Shown in pieces: positions 43,643 through 51,393 of a DNA stretch of 64,000 bases. Position numbers and translations under genes: made by a program. Every line of letters begins with the position of its first letter. Position 1 is the first letter of the stretch. The notes beneath the pieces are model-generated. The model saw only the letters and a list, made by a program, of their open reading frames with translations. It searched no databases and was not told the origin of the DNA. Source of the stretch: Actinoplanes teichomyceticus ATCC 31121 (GTDB lineage Bacteria > Actinomycetota > Actinomycetes > Mycobacteriales > Micromonosporaceae); contig NZ_CP023865.1 of assembly GCF_003711105.1 (NCBI RefSeq), forward strand, positions 3,993,001-4,057,000. The letters are read 5' to 3'.

Positions 43643-44281
43643 ATGCGCTGGCTGTGGCCGGGAGTCGTGTTGATGGTCGCGGTGGCTGGCTGCGGGCAAG
43701 GTGCAGCCTTTGAAGACCACGGCGACGATGCGGCACCCACCGTGTCCGCCGAGTCAGTAACTAGCAGTATGTCCTCTTCGGCTGCCTCACCTGCAGCGGC
43801 CAGTGCCCAGGCCGGACCGCCTTGGTATTCGGTAGCCGGTAGCGGTCCGGAATTCTCCGGCTCGAAGCGCGTGACGACCGGGCCGCTGGCTTCCATGAAC
43901 GGGTTCGACAACGACGCCCAGTTCCAGCGGGTCTGGGCCTATGACGGCAGGGTCAGATCCGCCACGGTTGACATCGACCGGGCGAATCCCGGCGCTAATC
44001 ATCGAGGTGGCCTGGAGCAGACCATGAGAGTTTCGAAAATGGCTGGCCACCTCGTCGTGCCACTGTCCGGAATCGGGGACGGCGGCCTGGCGGTTCTCGC
44101 CAGCAGCAGCAAGGGCGCCAATCGTCCGCTGGTGCGGGCCTACGCCAGTTCGGGCAATGCGAGCATCAGCGTGCTCGTTTACGTCGACGGCGTGATCGAT
44201 GACGAGGCCGACTTGACCGCGCATTCCTCTGAGTTGATCGCCGCCCTCAACGAGTTAGTCGACGACCTGCGCCCGCGGTGA
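43643..44281 (+). CDS. Putative lipoprotein, unknown function
   Basis: The 212-aa product starts MRWLWPGVVLMVAVAGCGQG with a lipobox (VAGC, Cys17), so it should be lipidated and held on the outer face of the membrane. A Ser/Ala-rich linker (about 30-60) precedes a compact domain (FSGSKRVTTGPLASMNGFDN ... LVVPLSGIGDGGLAVLASSS) that recalls DUF3558-like lipoproteins, though the match is weak. GAAGGATGG lies upstream of the ATG. Its stop is 20 bp from the IS5 remnant. Confidence 0.75.
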   Translation: MRWLWPGVVLMVAVAGCGQGAAFEDHGDDAAPTVSAESVTSSMSSSAASPAAASAQAGPPWYSVAGSGPEFSGSKRVTTGPLASMNGFDNDAQFQRVWAYDGRVRSATVDIDRANPGANHRGGLEQTMRVSKMAGHLVVPLSGIGDGGLAVLASSSKGANRPLVRAYASSGNASISVLVYVDGVIDDEADLTAHSSELIAALNELVDDLRPR

Positions 44282-44301
44282 CGCCGACCCTGGGTGGGGC
44301 A

Positions 44302-44737
44302 GGCGGCGATGAGCTTGGGCAGGGCGGCCCGCCGGGCATCCGCGCGGGTGATGCGGCGGGTCATTAGGGTGATGTTTGCCCAGGTGATGTGGGCTTCGGA
44401 GTGTTCGGGGAGGCGTTCGTAGTCGCGGGAGTTACGGCGGGCGCGCATCAGCCAAGACAGTGACCGTTCCACGATCCACCGGCGGGGCAGCACCTTGAAG
44501 CCGACCTGGTTCGAGGGCTTCTTCACGACCTTGAAGGTGAGGTCGAGGTCGTTGCGGGCCCAGTCGGCCAGGCCGGTGTAGGCGTTGTCGGCCCACATCA
44601 GGGTCAACTCCGGGTTGTTTTTGCGCAGCTCAGGCAGCATTTCGCGTGCGGCATCGCGGTCGGTGACGTCCGCCCTGGTCACCTTCACCGTCATCAACAG
44701 GCCCTTCGTGTCGACGATCAGGTGCCGCTTCCGGCCG
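44302..44737 (-). mobile_element. C-terminal half of a split IS5-type transposase
   Basis: From 44731 downward the minus strand reads RKRHLIVDTKGLLMTVKVTR ... LMWADNAYTGLADW ... RRWIVERSLSWLMRARRNSR and LPEHSEAHITWANITLM, the second half of an IS5/IS1647-like DDE transposase, including the late catalytic Glu in WIVERSL. Its first half lies 5.6 kb away at 50365-50795 on the same strand, separated by the element 44738-50364. The frame runs on past the IS end to 44179. Bases 44732-44737 (CGGCCG) are the left copy of the flanking direct repeat. Confidence 0.9.
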
Positions 44738-44747
44738 TTATCTTGAG
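44738..44747 (+). repeat. Left terminal inverted repeat
   Basis: TTATCTTGAG is the exact reverse complement of 50355-50364; similarity stops after these 10 bp. Confidence 0.85.
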
Positions 44748-44855
44748 CCCGAGTGGGGCTGTCGTTCATGTGCGTGACGCGGCCTTTGGGTCCTTCAATC
44801 TGCGTGCTGGATGCGGTTATCTACCGCGGTCCATCACGAAGGATCTGGAGGCTCG

Positions 44856-45974
44856 ATGCGCGTACAGCGGGTGTTGGCGCCCGACTCGATGGCGGAGTCG
44901 TGGACGCTGCTGGGCGATGATCTGCGACCGGTAGGCCCGGTGGAGTCGTTCCTGGCCTACCTGACGGCGGTCGAGCGGTCGCCGAACACCGTCAAGGCGT
45001 ACGCCCATGATTTGAAGGACTGGTGGAGCTTCCTCGTCGGCCGAGGGCTGGACTGGACGGCGGTGGACTTGGAGGCGTTGGCGTCCTTCGTGGCCTGGCT
45101 GCGGCTGCCGCCGGCGGCTCGCAGCGGCGCGGTGGTGGTGCTGCCGACGGTGGAGCATCACTGCACTGCTTCCAGCGTGAACCGCAAGCTGGCCGCGGTC
45201 AGCGCGTTCTACGAGTTTCATGCCCGCAGCGGGGTCGAGGTCGCTGGTCTGCTGGTGACAACGCGCCCGGCCGGACGGCACCGCGCGGCGGCCACCTCCT
45301 ACAAGCCGTTTCTCCAGCACATCGCGTCCGGCCGGCCTGAACGGAGCCGGACGATCAAACTCAAGACCGGGCCGAAGCGTCCCCGTGTCCTGACCGCTGC
45401 CCAGGACCAGACCATCCTGGATGCTTGCGAGCACCTGCGCGACCGGCTGCTGTTCGCCCTGCTGCTGGACACCGGGATTCGTATCGGCGAGGCCCTCGGC
45501 CTACGCCACGACGACATCGCGATCGCCGAACGGCAGGTCAGCGTGGTGTCGCGGCACAACGACAACCGGGCCCGGGCGAAGGCCGACCGGTCGCGCACCG
45601 TCCCGGCGAGCGCATAGTTGATGCGCCTGTACTGCGACTACCTGCACCGCGAGTACGGCGCGTTGGACTCCGACTACGTCTTCGTGAACCTCTTCGCCGA
45701 GCCGCAGGGACACCCTTGGGGTTATCCGGCTGTCTATGACCTGGTCAGACGGCTGCGTAAGCGCACGGGCATCGCCTTCGCGCCTCACCAGTACCGTCAC
45801 ACCTACGCGACCTGGCTGCTGCGCCGCGGCGCCGGCATGGAGAACGTCAAAGAGCTCCTCGGCCACGCCTCGATCAGCACCACGATCGACACATATGGCC
45901 ACCTCACCGTCGAGGACGCCCGCCGCCCTCTCGAAGGTGCGGGCTGGTTCACCGGACGCGAGGTACGGCTGTGA
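44856..45974 (+). pseudogene. tnpA: tnpA tyrosine recombinase with an in-frame amber codon
   Basis: The frame encodes a 372-codon Tn554 TnpA-like recombinase: N-terminal SAM-like domain (SFLAYLTAVERSPNTVKAYA), catalytic Arg in [50 protein letters not shown] and the usual ending [16 protein letters not shown] ([12 protein letters not shown]). A TAG at 45615-45617 (codon 254), where relatives have a normal residue before [14 protein letters not shown], cuts off H, R, H and Tyr of the active site. Otherwise the frame is uninterrupted, so the mutation looks recent. GGAGG precedes the ATG. Its stop overlaps tnpB (GTGA). Confidence 0.85.
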
Positions 45975-48209
45975 CCGTCACCGTCCTCAACGTTGAACGG
46001 GGACGTGCCGGCCTGTTGGAGAAGTTGCTGGCCGCCGTCCGAGCCGAGTTCCGCACCGAGATCTACCGCCCCCGTCCCGACGATCCGGTCTTTGCCTCCC
46101 CGCCCTGCACCGTTTCGGACTGCGACCGTCCGGTCATTCAAAGCGGGCTCTGCAACGCACACGCAATCCGATGGCGCCAGCGCGGGCACCCGGACATGCA
46201 CGCCTTCCTCGCCGATCCGCCGAGGCCCGGTCCGTGGTGGGATACTGCCGGGCTGCACCGTCGCTGGATGCCGCTACGGCGTCAACAGCGGCGGGCTTTG
46301 CGTGAAGCATCGCGACCGGTGGCTGCGAGCCGGACGCCCCGACCTGGCTGCCTGGAACGCCCCTTCCTTGATCACTGCCGATGACGTTCCGGCTCAATGC
46401 CGCCTGCCGTTCTGCACCTTGTGGGTCGAGAATCGGCAGAAAGTCTTCTGCAAGAACCACGAAGCCCGGTGGCGTCACGCTGGCCGTCCCGACATCGAGC
46501 AGTTCATCGTCGACTGCCAGGTGATCGGCACGGCAAGCATCGACCTGCGAGGGCTGCCGCCTCAGCTGAAGCTGGAGTTCCAGTACGGCCTGCAATGCCG
46601 GGCCGACGCCCGCGCCCGCACGACGCCTCCGTACATGGTGATGCAAGCAGTGCGGCTGGCCAATGCCGCCGCAGTCGCCTCGCTGCTGGACCTGGAGGAA
46701 CCCGAATGGCGCAAGGCCGCGAAGGCCGGCCGCAGCCGGCCACCCATCCTGTTCGTGATCGAAGCCCGAGAAGCGGTCGAGTCGCTGCGCGACGGCACGG
46801 GTTGGGAGGTGGAGTATCCCCGCGACGTCTGGCGGCTGCACAAGCTGCCCGGCATCACCGTCCGGCACGCGGATTCGACCTCGCGGGAGCGGCTGCGGTT
46901 CGACCGGATCAGCCAGCCTTGGCTGCGCGAACTGGGCAAACGGTGGACCCGGCTGCGGCTGGCCACGGGCTTGAGCGTCGGCGCGGCGAAAGCGGGAGTG
47001 GACGCACTGACCTGCTTCAGCCAGTTTCTGGCGCACGCCGGCGTCGACCGGCTCGCTGAGGTCGACCGCCCGCTGTTGGAACGGCACCTGGGCTGGGTTG
47101 CCTCATAGCCCGGTGGACACGGGGTGAAGAAGACCCGGATCGGCGGGCTGAACCTGTTCTTGCAGGCCGTCCGGCAGCACCGCTGGGACGACACCCTGCC
47201 GGGCAGCGCAGCGTTCTACGCCGGCGATACCCCGCCCGTTCCCGCACAGGTCTCACGCCGCTTGGCCGAACACGTCATGACCCAGGTGGAAGCCGAACAC
47301 AATCTCAGCCGGTGGAGCGATCCGGCGGGCCGCCTGATCACGCTCATCCTCATCCGCTGCGGCCTGCGGATCTCCAGCGCCCTCACCCTCGACTTCGACT
47401 GCCTCGTGCACGACGCCCAAGGCGCCCCCTACCTGCGGTATTTCAACACCAAGATGAAACGTGAGGCGGCAGTCCCCATCGACGAAGAACTCCAGGCCGC
47501 GATCCGCGACCAACAGCAGCGCGTCCTGGCCCGCTGGCCCGAAGCGCCACCCGTGCTCTTCCCCCGTCCGCAAGCGAACGTCTCCGGCACCCTGCGCCTG
47601 CCCCACGGCACCTACCGCCAGATGCTCAACCGCTGGCTGGCCACCTGCGACATCCGCGACGAACACGGCCGACCGGTTCACCTGACACCGCATCAGTGGC
47701 GGCACACCTTCGCCTGCCGGCTGATCAACCGCGACGTTCCCCAAGAGGTCGTACGCGTGCTGCTCGACCACGAGTCCAACCAGATGACCGCCCACTACGC
47801 GCGGATCACCGACCAGACCGTCCGCCGTCGCTGGGAGGCCGCGATGAAAGTCAACATCAAAAGCGAGCGCGTCAGCCTCGACGCCGACGGACCGCTCGGC
47901 CAGGCGCAGTGGGCCAAGACCCGCTACGGCATCGCCACCCAGACCCTGCCCAACGGCTACTGCGGACTGCCCGTGCAAAAGAGCTGCCCGCACGCCAATG
48001 CCTGCCTGACCTGCCCGGTTTTCCTCACCGGGCCCGAGTTCCTGCCTGAACTACGCGAACAGCACACCCGCACCCTGACCCTGATCGACAACGCCACCAC
48101 CTGCGGCCATACCCGGGTCGCGCAGATGAACCAGCAGGTCGCCGACAACCTCACCCGCATGATCGGCGAACTCGAGGATGGCAACGAGGAGACCGCGAGT
48201 GCGAGCTGA
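45971..48209 (+). pseudogene. tnpB: tnpB tyrosine recombinase with N-terminal zinc-finger repeats, one frameshift and one amber codon
   Basis: The gene starts at a GTG overlapping the tnpA stop. Residues 1-170 include three Cys/His repeats of the form C-x3/4-C ... LC-x2-H-x3-RW-x3-G-x-PD (PPCTVSDCDRPVIQSGLCNA, PGCTVAGCRYGVNSGGLCVK, AQCRLPFCTLW ... FCKNH). A +1 shift (one extra base near 46235, after PRPGPWW) and a TAG at 47106-47108 (after LERHLGWVAS) break the frame. Beyond them the catalytic domain is complete (LIRCGLRISSALTLDFD, LTPHQWRHTFACRLINRD, LLDHESNQMTAHYAR), followed by the Cys-rich tail SCPHANACLTCPVF. The repaired product would be about 745 residues. Confidence 0.85.
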
Positions 48210-48615
48210 CAACTCCCACGTGATCGTCGCTGCTGCCCGGCGGCGGGCAGCAGCGACCCTGCGCCGCGCGAAGGCGGCCCTGCGCCGGCTGGACACCACC
48301 GGCGTCACGATCACCTTCGAAACGGTCGCCCGCGAAGCGGGCGTCTCCCGGTCCTGGCTCTACAACCAACCCGACTTGCGAGCCGAGATCGAGCGCCTCC
48401 GAGCGCGGCACCGCGTTCCTTCAGCCCGCGCTGTTCCGGAGCGGCAGCGAGCCTCCGACGCCTCTCTGCTGCGGCGACTGCAGGCCGCCACCGAACGCAA
48501 CCGGCAACTGGAAGCCGAGAACCGAGCGCTACGCGCTGCCCTCGCCCTTGCACTCGGGGAACGCCGCACAGCGCACCTCCCAGGGAAAGCTGCAAGTGCC
48601 TCAAGCTCGGCTTGA
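48199..48615 (+). CDS. tnpC: DUF6262 / TnpC-like transposition accessory protein
   Basis: The 138-aa protein starts at a GTG (48199) 9 nt after GAGGAG and overlaps the tnpB stop by 11 bp. It has an HTH-like segment (ITFETVAREAGVSRSWLYNQ, about 36-55) followed by a coiled coil (DASLLRRLQAATERNRQLEA with ENRALRAALAL). The family always accompanies Tn554-type recombinase pairs and is thought to help transposition by binding DNA or the recombinases. It is intact, unlike tnpA and tnpB. Its location defines the module's right end. Confidence 0.8.
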   Translation: MRADNSHVIVAAARRRAAATLRRAKAALRRLDTTGVTITFETVAREAGVSRSWLYNQPDLRAEIERLRARHRVPSARAVPERQRASDASLLRRLQAATERNRQLEAENRALRAALALALGERRTAHLPGKAASASSSA

Positions 48616-48862
48616 CGCAGGGTAATCAACAGCATGCCGCAACAGCTTGATCACATACCCGCTTCTGCCGAGACAGTGTGAGTGTTCGATTCTTGCCTGC
48701 GTAGTAGTTCGTCGCCGTGAGAGCCCCGGCCACGTGCCAGATCACCGTTGCCGTGGGGCAGACTGAGCGGGGACGGTCAGCCTCCCCTTCGGTCCTCGAT
48801 TATCGGCAAGGGGCGTCCGCGGTCTTGACCGAGGCAAGTGGCTTGTCGGCCGGGACGGCGGG
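48616..48862. other. Intergenic inside the element, nothing recognised
   Basis: About 250 bp between tnpC and the convergent tetR stop. No gene, repeat or clear terminator was found. Confidence 0.4.
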
Positions 48863-49441
48863 TCAGAACATGGCGAGCCTGTCGAGCAGCAGCTCCACCC
48901 TCGACGCGGTGTCCTCCGGCAGTAGGCGTCCGGCCCGGGTCAGGGTCGCCAGGCCGTGCAGAGACGCCCAGAACACCTCGGTGAACAGCTGTGGGTCGAC
49001 GCCGTTCCCGGCGACCTCGCTCAGGCACTCCAGCAGCGAGGCGAAAGCATCCTTGAGTGGTTGTGGGGTTTCCTCCTGCGCGTACGCAAGACCGCCGTCG
49101 AGCTCGAAGAGGGCGTCGTAGACCGCCGGGTTGCGTGCGGCGAAGTCAAGGTAGGTGCGTGCGAGGGCGGCTACCCGCTCGCGCGGACCGTCCATGGTAT
49201 CGGTCGCGGCCCGCACCGCCGCGGCCATCTCGGTGGCGCCCTGGAGGGCGACGGCACCAATGATTTCGCGCTTGCCGCGGAAGTGGCTGTAGAGGACGGG
49301 CTGGCTGTACTCGATGCACTCGGCGAGCCGGCGGGTGGTGACCGCGTCCCAGCCCTGCTGTTCGGCGAGTTCCCGGGCCGTCACCACGATGAGGCGTTCA
49401 CGCTGCGCCCGTTCTCGTGCCTTGCGTTCCTGTGCCGACAT
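48863..49441 (-). CDS. TetR/AcrR-family repressor (element cargo)
   Basis: The 192-aa protein has an N-terminal TetR DNA-binding domain: ARELAEQQGWDAVTTRRLAE, then ECIEYSQPVLYSHFRGKREI. The C-terminal part (about 75-192) is a TetR_C type ligand-binding domain (PRERVAALARTYLDFAARNP). It is divergent from the DUF1772 membrane-protein gene, and two matching palindromes lie in the gap, so it probably represses both genes and is released by an unknown ligand. ATG 49441 or GTG 49450 may start it. Confidence 0.85.
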   Translation of the reverse strand: MSAQERKARERAQRERLIVVTARELAEQQGWDAVTTRRLAECIEYSQPVLYSHFRGKREIIGAVALQGATEMAAAVRAATDTMDGPRERVAALARTYLDFAARNPAVYDALFELDGGLAYAQEETPQPLKDAFASLLECLSEVAGNGVDPQLFTEVFWASLHGLATLTRAGRLLPEDTASRVELLLDRLAMF

Positions 49442-49450
49442 AGCCGCCAC

Positions 49451-49515
49451 CCTAGCACCGCTAGGAATGCGAGCGCTGCACTGCTATCGTTGCCACGAAA
49501 TCTAGCAACGCTAGG
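49451..49515. promoter_or_regulatory. Paired TetR operators in the divergent promoter
   Basis: CCTAGCACCGCTAGG (49451-49465, a perfect palindrome around ACC) and TCTAGCAACGCTAGG (49501-49515) are the same site with two changes. The first adjoins the tetR start; the second lies 15 bp before the membrane-protein ATG at 49531. Confidence 0.8.
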
Positions 49516-49530
49516 AAAGGGAAGGTCAAT

Positions 49531-49977
49531 ATGCTCAACGCACTTGAGGTCGTCACGACCGTGGTCGTCGGCGTGATGGTGGGGGTGGAGTTCTCCGTCG
49601 CCTTCGTCATCAACCCGATCCTCAACGCCCTGCCCGGGGAGAGCGGCCAGCTCGGTCGCGCCCACGGGGGTCGGATGCTCGGCGCCGTGATGCCGGCTTG
49701 GTACATCACCTCGCTCGCCCTCGTTACGGTCTGGGCACTCGCCGAATGGCAACGTCATGGCGCCGACCTCGTCATCGCCGCCGGCGCACTCCTGATCCTG
49801 AGCGTGATCATGTCGATCCTGCTGCTCGTCCCGATCAACAACCGCAGCAAGACGTGGACCCCCGAGAACCGGCCTGCCGATTGGAAGCAGCAGATGAACC
49901 GCTGGGACCGCTTTCACTACGTCCGCGTCGCCGTCATCATCGCCGCCTTCGCCCTGCTGGTCACCGCCATCGCCTGA
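49531..49977 (+). CDS. DUF1772-like integral membrane protein (element cargo)
   Basis: The 148-aa protein has four hydrophobic helices (about 6-28, 52-72, 82-100 and 130-147) and the family's conserved pieces: GVMVGVEFSVAFVINPILNA, LLLVPINNRSKTW and MNRWDRFHYVRVAVIIAAFA. DUF1772 proteins are small membrane proteins of unknown function often paired with TetR regulators. GGGAAGG precedes the ATG. Control by the divergent TetR protein is inferred from the operators. Confidence 0.8.
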   Translation: MLNALEVVTTVVVGVMVGVEFSVAFVINPILNALPGESGQLGRAHGGRMLGAVMPAWYITSLALVTVWALAEWQRHGADLVIAAGALLILSVIMSILLLVPINNRSKTWTPENRPADWKQQMNRWDRFHYVRVAVIIAAFALLVTAIA

Positions 49978-50359
49978 GCCGGAACCAGTGGCCTGGGACG
50001 CTTCGGCAGGCACCGGTGACACTGGCGGATATGTGTTGCTCACAGGCATCCGCATCTGCCGCGATCCGCGTGCTTGTTACATGTGCCTGCGGTGACATGG
50101 CGTAGTCGTCGGCGAGTCGTTGGTGCGGCCGGTTCAGGACCGCTACGCCGCCGGGGTCGTCGATCTTCGGTGCGGCGAGCGCCGTCCGGGTACGGCGGGC
50201 GAGACCGCCAGGAGGGCTGAAGGGGTCTGCCCAGACCAGAGGCGACACGCCGAAGAGTAATTTCTGCGCTGCCGCCAAGTCCTGCTCAACCGAAGCGTCG
50301 ATGACACCGCCCACCACGCAGAACACCAGGTCAGCGGACCACGCGTTGTGCTGACTCAA
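49961..50359 (-). CDS. Doubtful ORF at the right end of the element
   Basis: The 132-codon frame (SQHNAWSADLVFCVVGGVID, then KLLFGVSPLVWADPFSPPGG) starts at a TTG lying inside the right terminal inverted repeat and has no ribosome site. The central 80 residues look protein-like but matched no family I know. It may be the remnant of a cargo gene cut by the element's end. It overlaps the DUF1772 stop by 17 bp. Confidence 0.25.
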   Translation of the reverse strand: MSQHNAWSADLVFCVVGGVIDASVEQDLAAAQKLLFGVSPLVWADPFSPPGGLARRTRTALAAPKIDDPGGVAVLNRPHQRLADDYAMSPQAHVTSTRIAADADACEQHISASVTGACRSVPGHWFRLRRWR

Positions 50360-50364
50360 GATAA
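50355..50364 (+). repeat. Right terminal inverted repeat
   Basis: CTCAAGATAA mirrors the left end exactly and is followed directly by the CGGCCG copy at 50365-50370. Confidence 0.85.
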
Positions 50365-50795
50365 CGGCCGTTGATCAACTTCGCGCCGTCGAAGCCACGG
50401 GTGTCCCGGCTGACGGTCTCGGCAGCTGTCACGCTCTGGGAGTCCATGATGGCGGTGACCGGGCGGGGGCACCGGCCTGCGTCAACGCGGATGCGGCGTC
50501 GCAGCTGGTCGCGGACGTGCTCGAGCACACCTGCCTTGGCCCAGCGGGCGAAGAACCCGTAAACGGTCTTGAAAGGCGGAAAGTCCGAGGGCAGGGCTCG
50601 CCACTTGCATCCGTTGTCGACCAGGTAGCGGATCGCGTCGACGATCTCGCGGCGCGGGTGCGCCTCCGGATGCCCACCCGTTGGTGTGGTGCTGGCCGGC
50701 ACCGGCAGCAGCGGTTCGAGGAGCTCCCACTCGGCGTCGGTGGTGTCCGACGGGTAGCGCCGCCGCCGGGGCAGGGCCGTGATCGTGGCGTTCAT
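50365..50795 (-). mobile_element. N-terminal half of the split IS5-type transposase
   Basis: From an ATG at 50793-50795 the minus strand reads MNATITALPRRRRYPSDTTD, then AEWELLEPLLPV ... RWRALPSDFPPFKTVYGFF-type sequence, MDSQSVTAAETVSRDTRGFD and GAKLINGR, the first half of an IS5-type transposase with the first catalytic Asp in IMDSQS. At NGR it breaks off and resumes at 44731. The 143 codons plus two bases join the other half in frame. Confidence 0.9.
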
Positions 50796-50992
50796 TCGCC
50801 ACGTGCCAGCAGCTCAAGCGCGGTCTTGACGCTGATGAGTTGGCCCAACACCAGCTGGGCCCACTCGTCGTCGGGATGGCCCTTCAGGTGCGGGATGATC
50901 ACGCTGTCCAGCAGCCGGGTGGTCCGCAGCATCTCCTCGCGCACGCAGCCGCGGTCGTAGGCGATCCAGTCCGCGCCCTCGATGGTCGTCAT
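50792..50992 (-). CDS. Truncated duplicate of the RacP-like C-terminus
   Basis: The 66-aa product (MTTIEGADWIAYDRGCVREE ... LVLGQLISVKTALELLARGE) repeats the last half of the neighbouring RacP-like protein (ADWIAYERACVRTELTRIAR ... LVLGQLTGVKSALGLLVRST) at moderate identity. It lacks the N-terminal DNA-binding half. Its ATG overlaps the stop of 50989-51393 by 4 bp, so it is probably cotranslated. Its own stop overlaps the transposase ATG. Confidence 0.6.
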   Translation of the reverse strand: MTTIEGADWIAYDRGCVREEMLRTTRLLDSVIIPHLKGHPDDEWAQLVLGQLISVKTALELLARGE

Positions 50993-51393
50993 GTGCTGCG
51001 GACGAGCAGCCCGAGCGCGGACTTGACGCCGGTGAGCTGCCCGAGCACCAACTGGACCCACTCGTCGTCGGGAAGCCGTTGAGCGTGCGGGATAACCGTG
51101 CTGCTCAGCAGCCGCGCGATGCGGGTCAGTTCGGTGCGCACGCAGGCCCGCTCGTAGGCGATCCAGTCGGCCGGCTCGGTCGACAGCTGGTAGCCGTCCC
51201 TGCGAGTCCAGGTCAGCGGGGTCAGGTTCTCCGCCGCCAAGACCTCACGCACGAACCGGAGCCCGGACTGGACCTGGTAGGCACTCATCTCGGTCGCGGT
51301 CATCAGCTGCCGGGTGGTCAGCCCGGCCGGGCGGGCTTCCATCAACGCGACCCGGACCAGATCACCGGCGACGTTCGCGGGCACCCGTCCCAT
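50989..51393 (-). CDS. RacP-like winged-helix regulator
   Basis: The 134-aa protein has an N-terminal winged-helix-like part (LVRVALMEARPAGLTTRQLM and TATEMSAYQVQSGLRFVREV) and ends WIAYERACVRTELTRIARLL ... DDEWVQLVLGQLTGVKSALG. It matches proteins annotated RacP in streptomycetes, usually on plasmids or mobile regions and next to a DUF6192 protein, as here. The role is unknown. It follows the DUF6192 stop by 10 bp and overlaps the downstream duplicate by 4 bp. Confidence 0.65.
   Translation of the reverse strand: MGRVPANVAGDLVRVALMEARPAGLTTRQLMTATEMSAYQVQSGLRFVREVLAAENLTPLTWTRRDGYQLSTEPADWIAYERACVRTELTRIARLLSSTVIPHAQRLPDDEWVQLVLGQLTGVKSALGLLVRST

Follow-up and report, generated by a model that had tools for sequence, protein, structure and literature searches.

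A decayed Tn554-like element of Actinoplanes teichomyceticus and its actinobacterial relatives, inserted at conserved codons of transposase and recombinase genes of other mobile elements

A 64,000-nucleotide stretch of the chromosome of Actinoplanes teichomyceticus ATCC 31121 (contig NZ_CP023865.1, positions 3,993,001 to 4,057,000; hereafter the window, with positions numbered from its first letter) contains a Tn554-like element of 5,627 bp (44738-50364) that lies within an IS5-type transposase gene and is flanked on each side by the hexamer CGGCCG. We are confident in reading this element as a decayed, cargo-carrying member of an actinobacterial Tn554-type clade, whose members insert at a core supplied by the target within the transposase or recombinase genes of other mobile elements, each branch of the clade having its own targets. 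We observed directly the ends, the core, and the empty site, as well as which genes are carried, where the targets are hit, and how branches match targets. It is also probable that the members of this clade are hyperparasites, with recombinases in each branch that recognize, at the DNA level, a conserved protein motif from a single family of transposases or recombinases belonging to other elements. Their targets would comprise IS5, IS3, IS256, IS1380, IS1182, Tn3, TniB, and tyrosine and serine recombinases, and probably ISL3 and ISAs1.

Results

The element interrupts an IS5-type transposase gene whose empty site is found in congeners

The C-terminal half of the interrupted gene (44179-44731, minus strand) matches PF01609 (DDE_Tnp_1) from profile position 34, and the N-terminal half (50371-50795, minus strand) matches PF13340 (DUF4096, E 6e-28) and is homologous to intact copies elsewhere, such as that of locus L118; together with a match to NF033580, these profiles identify both halves as an IS5-family DDE transposase. 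When 67 genomes of the genus were searched with the N-terminal half as query, intact copies were found. The earlier note on this DNA, made from the letters alone, had proposed a search for uninterrupted copies, and 16 of the 30 loci fetched did cross the junction with a single hexamer and no element. The best of them, L118, is 92.8% identical over 899 bp across the junction, with a single hexamer and no extra DNA; the 1-bp gap at the junction in every spanning alignment is a surplus base in the query. In the window the core covers the GR codons of the transposase (LIN-GR-KRH), and the hexamer at empty sites varies (e.g., CGGGAG, TGGCCG, and CGGCCG), in keeping with the free third positions of these codons. 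An element of this kind occupies the same IS5-type codons at seven further loci, two of them recognized by junction sequence only, which bears out a second check proposed in that note.

The left and right cores occupy 44732-44737 and 50365-50370 (no strand assigned), and the terminal repeats TTATCTTGAG (44738-44747, plus strand) and CTCAAGATAA (50355-50364, minus strand) are exact inverted repeats common to the relatives; the coordinates and letters given for them previously were correct. Since CGGCCG is palindromic, the terminal repeat and the supposed duplication form one string, an exact inverted repeat of 16 bp. A second exact 16-bp inverted pair occurs in the same 7.2 kb around the element, so a repeat of this length is unremarkable by itself and could arise by chance. 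We judge the ends to be real because the 16-mer is unique to them, because empty IS5 sites exist, and because relatives sit at the same IS5 codons. In a pattern scan the exact 16-mer occurred twice in the 8.29-Mb genome, both times as an element end, and the element is single-copy there. Among 394 sampled genomes of the class, the other 393 gave no match to this exact 16-mer; other members of the family differ in core or end letters. An internal TTATCT repeat lies 79 bp inward of the left end (44817-44822, plus strand), and this spacing is kept in all 19 relatives whose left end was located independently of the repeat. It is possibly an accessory recombinase site.

The window copy retains the Tn554 gene order and is inactivated

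Three genes lie in Tn554 order on the plus strand. The first, tnpA (44856-45974, start codon assumed), encodes a short tyrosine recombinase with SAM-like and integrase domains (PF02899 and PF00589, matched in two pieces); its product is 85% identical to the intact L038 protein and is broken by an in-frame TAG at 45615-45617. The adjacent tnpB (45971-48209, start codon assumed) encodes a long tyrosine recombinase with PF00589 in its C-terminal piece, and it carries a frameshift near 46224-46228, evident when its two reading frames are aligned to L038, as well as an in-frame TAG at 47106-47108. Downstream, tnpC (48178-48615) is open and encodes a DUF6262 protein of 145 aa (PF19776, E 7e-14). The window copy is thus decayed, and no full-length TnpA or TnpB can be made from it. 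This inactivation was overlooked in the earlier note, whose identification of a Tn554-like element within an IS5-type transposase is borne out by the profiles of the gene triad, the interrupted halves, and the similarity of TnpB.

The remainder of the element holds two cargo genes, for a TetR-family regulator (48863-49450, minus strand; PF00440 and PF13305) and a small anthrone-oxygenase-like protein (49531-49977, plus strand; PF08592), followed by a right tail (49978-50354, no strand) with no confident gene. Long open tnpA and tnpB frames are present in 39 of the 47 distinct elements with both ends located (38 at the cut-offs of the scan; L044, whose open frame begins just outside the scanned region, was added). 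Many relatives are ∼3.9 to 4.1 kb long and lack cargo, and some bear it, such as a protein-kinase gene in L050. In L039, a Streptomyces element that targets IS5, tnpA holds a 4.9-kb insert (L039:1872-6757) that brings a tyrosine recombinase of its own along with a gene for a carbon-nitrogen hydrolase, so that a mobile element is nested in a parasite that is itself nested in an insertion sequence (IS).

Relatives with these ends interrupt genes of other mobile elements

A search of a genome collection with TnpB provided 79 loci (best 80 of 84), and a search of plasmids gave 414 records, of which 10 were fetched. After removal of two identical duplicates (L170, equal to L169 over 10,083 bp, and L175, equal to L052 over 10,077 bp), the distinct set comprised 88 loci: the window, the 79 from the genome collection, and 8 from plasmids. 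L083 and L084, 99.98% identical over the element and ∼200 bp of flank, may be one insertion and were both counted. Ends of the TTATCT type were present in 56 of the 88 (the window, 48 of the 79, and 7 of the 8 plasmid loci). The flank was readable in 50 of these, L042, L049, L062, L064, L077, and L078 having been dropped before counting for a short flank or a run of N, along with the doubtful right end of L093. The left-end signature is TTATCT or TTCTCT with a second TTATCT or TTACCT 78 to 79 bp inward, occurring once per locus in most close relatives, and at the right end AGATAA follows CTCA or a similar sequence. The later end-search pattern included the 79-bp internal repeat, so the end profile is partly circular at that point, and only the 19 loci mentioned above were counted for spacing. 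An actinobacterial lineage with these ends and genes, as the earlier note had suggested, was thereby recovered.

Ends of this type were not assigned in the 32 loci outside the counted set (31 of the 79 and L176). A candidate AGATAA right end was seen in 9 of the 31, with both ends in L095; these were kept out of the count. No clean boundary was found for L089 and L101. Among viral contigs, 24 stretches fit the search patterns and none was confirmed as a TnpB relative; phage records gave three matches (two from Listeria and one from another phage), all below 60% identity.

In 48 of the 50 readable loci the interrupted gene is a transposase, a transposition ATPase, or a site-specific recombinase of another element, the assignments being made by profile (E 1e-3 or better) or annotated tblastn match in 34, by junction sequence only in 13, and by a weak match in one; several profile scores fall under curated cut-offs, the gene pieces being partial. 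The targets are IS3 (11), IS256 (10), tyrosine recombinase or integrase (9), IS5-type (8; the window, L038-L041, L043, L054, and L107), Tn3 (3), IS1380 (2), TniB (2), IS1182 (1), serine recombinase (1), and ISAs1 (1, weak). IS5, the only target considered previously, is therefore one of about ten target classes. The pattern extends beyond the counted set: the right-end flank of L095 is an ISL3 transposase by profile and annotation, the left flank of L108 is an ISL3 transposase by profile, and the right end of L090 adjoins sequence matching an annotated transposase.

Several observations weigh against this account of the targets. Thirteen of the 48 assignments come from junction sequence alone (L040, L107, L051, L053, L055, L057, L061, L066, L093, L075, L081, L083, and L087, with the motif as in confirmed members), and for seven of these (L107, L051, L053, L057, L093, L075, and L081) the scanned flank pieces yielded no supporting profile match. 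For the L107 flank, the best tblastn matches cover the upstream portion of the piece and are to DNA annotated as IS1380; the IS5 label of this locus derives from the residues next to the junction. The ISAs1 assignment of L088 is weak (E 0.006), and two of the 50 readable loci, L167 and L174, have no recognized mobile-element gene at the end. Most of the 32 loci (of 88) to which these ends could not be assigned are either more distantly related or truncated at a contig end; within this group, the right-flank pieces of L097, L098, L102, L113, and L116 had no Pfam match, and reading by eye revealed no obvious transposase frame in the flanks of L092 and three Arthrobacter loci. The flanks of L103 and L105 are short (6 and 135 bp). 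Because of the loci outside the TTATCT-type set, the target rule is not demonstrated for all Tn554-like elements. The argument for targeting draws on exact position and on the tree.

Insertion positions are fixed within target families and track the TnpB tree

Within a target family the break falls at the same profile position: 34/35 of DDE_Tnp_1 in all five C-terminal halves scanned, 337/338 of Transposase_mut in three of three pieces, 47 of DUF4158 in three of three, 352 of IS1380 in two of two, and 151 of Phage_integrase in all four main-branch integrase targets with a Pfam match (L050, L052, L060, and L173). L080, on a separate branch, is broken at position 143 of Phage_integrase. A TnpB tree built by a quick method (56 rows, 48 of them target-labelled, L175 repeating L052; 17 of 49 inner branches starred) requires nine changes for the ten target classes, which is the minimum, compared to a mean of 31.2 for shuffled labels, none of 200 shuffles being as low; three of the ten classes are one row each, and near-copies inflate the clustering, as the tool itself warns. 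The IS5 (98*) and IS3 (99*) targets form single supported groups, and the IS256 and integrase targets take two changes each.

These results bear on the alternative that there is no targeting, and that the elements land widely and persist only where the disrupted gene is a repeated transposase gene that can be spared. In favor of this view, such genes occur in many copies and their loss does no harm. A survival effect by itself would predict neither the shared breakpoint within each target family nor a target family that tracks the recombinase clade with the minimum of changes, and we consider this alternative very unlikely.

The flanking hexamer behaves as a crossover core

Left and right hexamers could both be read in 38 distinct elements (L093 dropped) and are equal in 19 and unequal in 19. 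An ordinary cut-and-paste transposon making a staggered-cut, 6-bp target duplication would explain why CGGCCG flanks the window copy at each end and why half the family has equal hexamers; it fits poorly with the unequal half and with a target fixed at the codon level, and a profile scan found no DDE transposase inside the window's element. This mechanism appears exceedingly improbable. The CGGCCG "duplication" is better read as a palindromic crossover core, a possibility that the earlier note had raised and that the 19 unequal pairs favor over a staggered cut.

For the 18 unequal pairs with an assigned target, where the target frame was read by eye, the difference is synonymous in 8 (including L047, counted from its C-side frame, the N-side being out of frame), nonsynonymous in 7, and of opposite strand in 3. 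Synonymous differences look as if the donor hexamer came from another copy of the same gene family, and a right hexamer representing the opposite target strand (L041, L051, and L080) fits a donor inserted in the other orientation. The left hexamer fits the protein consensus in L041, L051, L080, L066, and L171, which favors the left core as native; the right hexamer fits better in L043, L044, and L055, which counts against it. We lean toward the target hexamer staying on the left and the donor hexamer moving to the right, as described for strand-biased circularizing elements (SEs) and Tn554 (PMC10214605). Orientation is not fixed: the window and L041 have their right end facing the N-terminal half of the IS5 gene, and L038, L039, L043, and L054 have their left end there. 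For L043 and L048, a search of the hosts' own genomes for uninterrupted target copies returned only the interrupted copy and short or weak matches; for integrase-type targets, the same search returned the interrupted loci and further matches.

Elements of this clade carry tnpA and tnpB, encoding tyrosine recombinases, and tnpC, encoding a DUF6262 protein, between inverted ends of the TTATCTTGAG type. We propose that they integrate by recombinase-mediated exchange over a 6-bp core provided by the target, where it spans two or three codons that are conserved in the transposase or recombinase gene of another mobile element. Each recombinase branch is specialized on one target family, and insertion occurs in both orientations. 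TnpA and TnpB would make the cuts, and the target DNA around the core would be read directly. The donor hexamer may then be carried to the right end, with movement perhaps of the copy-out type proposed for SE elements.

Discussion

Tn554 transposition requires TnpA, TnpB, and TnpC, and the usual insertion target is radC; members of the Tn554 family in Firmicutes include Tn558, Tn6188, and Tn6674. The window element has the short recombinase TnpA with PF02899 and PF00589, the adjacent long TnpB, and the downstream DUF6262 TnpC of that family, and its clade shares the site specificity, the 6-bp core, and inverted ends, which are imperfect in Tn554. The Tn554 family is not known to make a true target duplication, and its hexamers may differ between the two ends; those of the window copy are equal, and those of the window clade differ in 19 of 38 elements. 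In contrast to the radC-targeting group, the window clade enters transposase and recombinase genes, has near-perfect TTATCTTGAG ends and different hosts, and its TnpB is only 33% identical. In tblastn searches TnpB matched Staphylococcus and Enterococcus plasmid records at 33.4% identity over 97% of the query (E 1e-54). Because the window element is inserted in an IS5-type gene and not in radC, we refer to a related, Tn554-like clade rather than to a member of that group.

Among the records matched by TnpB is an enterococcal Tn554-type element (L177) that carries the same three genes, one of them for a DUF6262 protein. Its ends form an inverted repeat in 11 of 12 bp, and it interrupts a gene with a JAB domain at the motif HNHPSGD. 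The window clade thus shares inverted ends and motif targeting with Tn554; its distinctive trait is that it selects the recombination genes of other elements. Imperfect inverted repeats are also described for the ends of Tn554 itself by Idola et al. (2023, PMC10214605). The overall reading of the earlier note thus holds for the Tn554-like affiliation, the core, the lineage, and the IS5 site; its view that terminal inverted repeats set the element apart from Tn554 does not.

Idola et al. name Staphylococcus and Enterococcus as hosts of Tn554-related elements and note that they made no formal study of host range. Van Houdt et al. (2012, PMC3414803) defined and named the Tn554-related transposons of actinobacteria, which occur on plasmids as well as chromosomes, and the window clade, with the same gene set and hosts, is very likely that group. 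The passages of that account considered here give no ends, core, or target rule, all of which the present analysis supplies for a poorly defined group; they suggest only that multicopy genomes could hold several similar attB sites. Among titles and abstracts found on Tn554-type actinobacterial, transposase-inserted, or DUF6262 elements, with most subscription journals lying outside their scope, none states the target rule.

Could the element instead be an SE or GInt island and not belong to the Tn554 group? SEs resemble it in their inverted ends and 6-bp core, in having a pair of tyrosine recombinases, and in encoding a small helper protein, and in SEs the left hexamer ends up on the right side of the new site (PMC10214605); one SE is inserted in insJ of IS3 (PMC10214605), and GinD of GInts resembles TnpC (PMC5385486). 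SEs differ in having four core genes, including Tfp, gammaproteobacterial hosts, and a median size of 15.7 kb (PMC10214605). The window element lacks the extra conserved gene (Tfp or GinC) and the arrangement intA-tfp-intB-srap; the tnpA and tnpB frames, taking the assumed start, share 4 bp and leave no room for a gene between them, and its three genes stand in Tn554 order with DUF6262. We therefore regard an SE or GInt identity as highly unlikely. RIT elements also have tyrosine recombinases in series and inverted ends (PMC3414803, PMC10214605), and one is reported within a transposase gene (PMC3414803); unlike the window element, whose third gene encodes a DUF6262 protein, they contain three consecutive tyrosine recombinases.

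If these elements are hyperparasites, targets would be found in any host, the entered gene would be destroyed, and the target family would have been switched repeatedly during diversification. The clade would offer tyrosine recombinases adapted to protein-coding motifs that are conserved in competing mobile elements. The targets of its branches form a natural series with which one can test directly what part of the recombinase sets target choice. Footprint hexamers may reveal the origin of a copy. Since the insertions break the genes of other transposons, they may also damp IS activity in their hosts.

Additional observations

Some loci depart from the family in their ends or their arrangement. 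A distant relative is present in two copies, 99.5% identical, in one metagenome-assembled genome (L092:6603-11672 and L108:6604-11673), with ends that consist of a ∼20-bp inverted repeat containing CTTCGCGTTT. Three Arthrobacter loci (L071, L073, and L074) have ends around GATATCTTTAG and a longer inverted repeat that extends into the flank. In L081, both flanks seem to hold the same side of an IS3 gene in inverted order, either an assembly artefact or a rearrangement. L077 and L078, contigs of 3,925 bp, have one and the same sequence, which also matches part of L076 exactly, and both terminate inside the core; this identity and the contig ends within the core suggest recent spread, with several copies, of a single element in the three Mycobacterium records. 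Two plasmids of Rhodococcus pyridinivorans 5Ap (L169 and L170) have an identical stretch of 10 kb in common, in which a Tn554-like element lies in a TniB-type gene beside a TniQ gene. In the window itself, a tandem duplication of 190 bp (50792-50981 and 50989-51178, 73% identical) lies just past the IS5 gene and overlaps small minus-strand reading frames.

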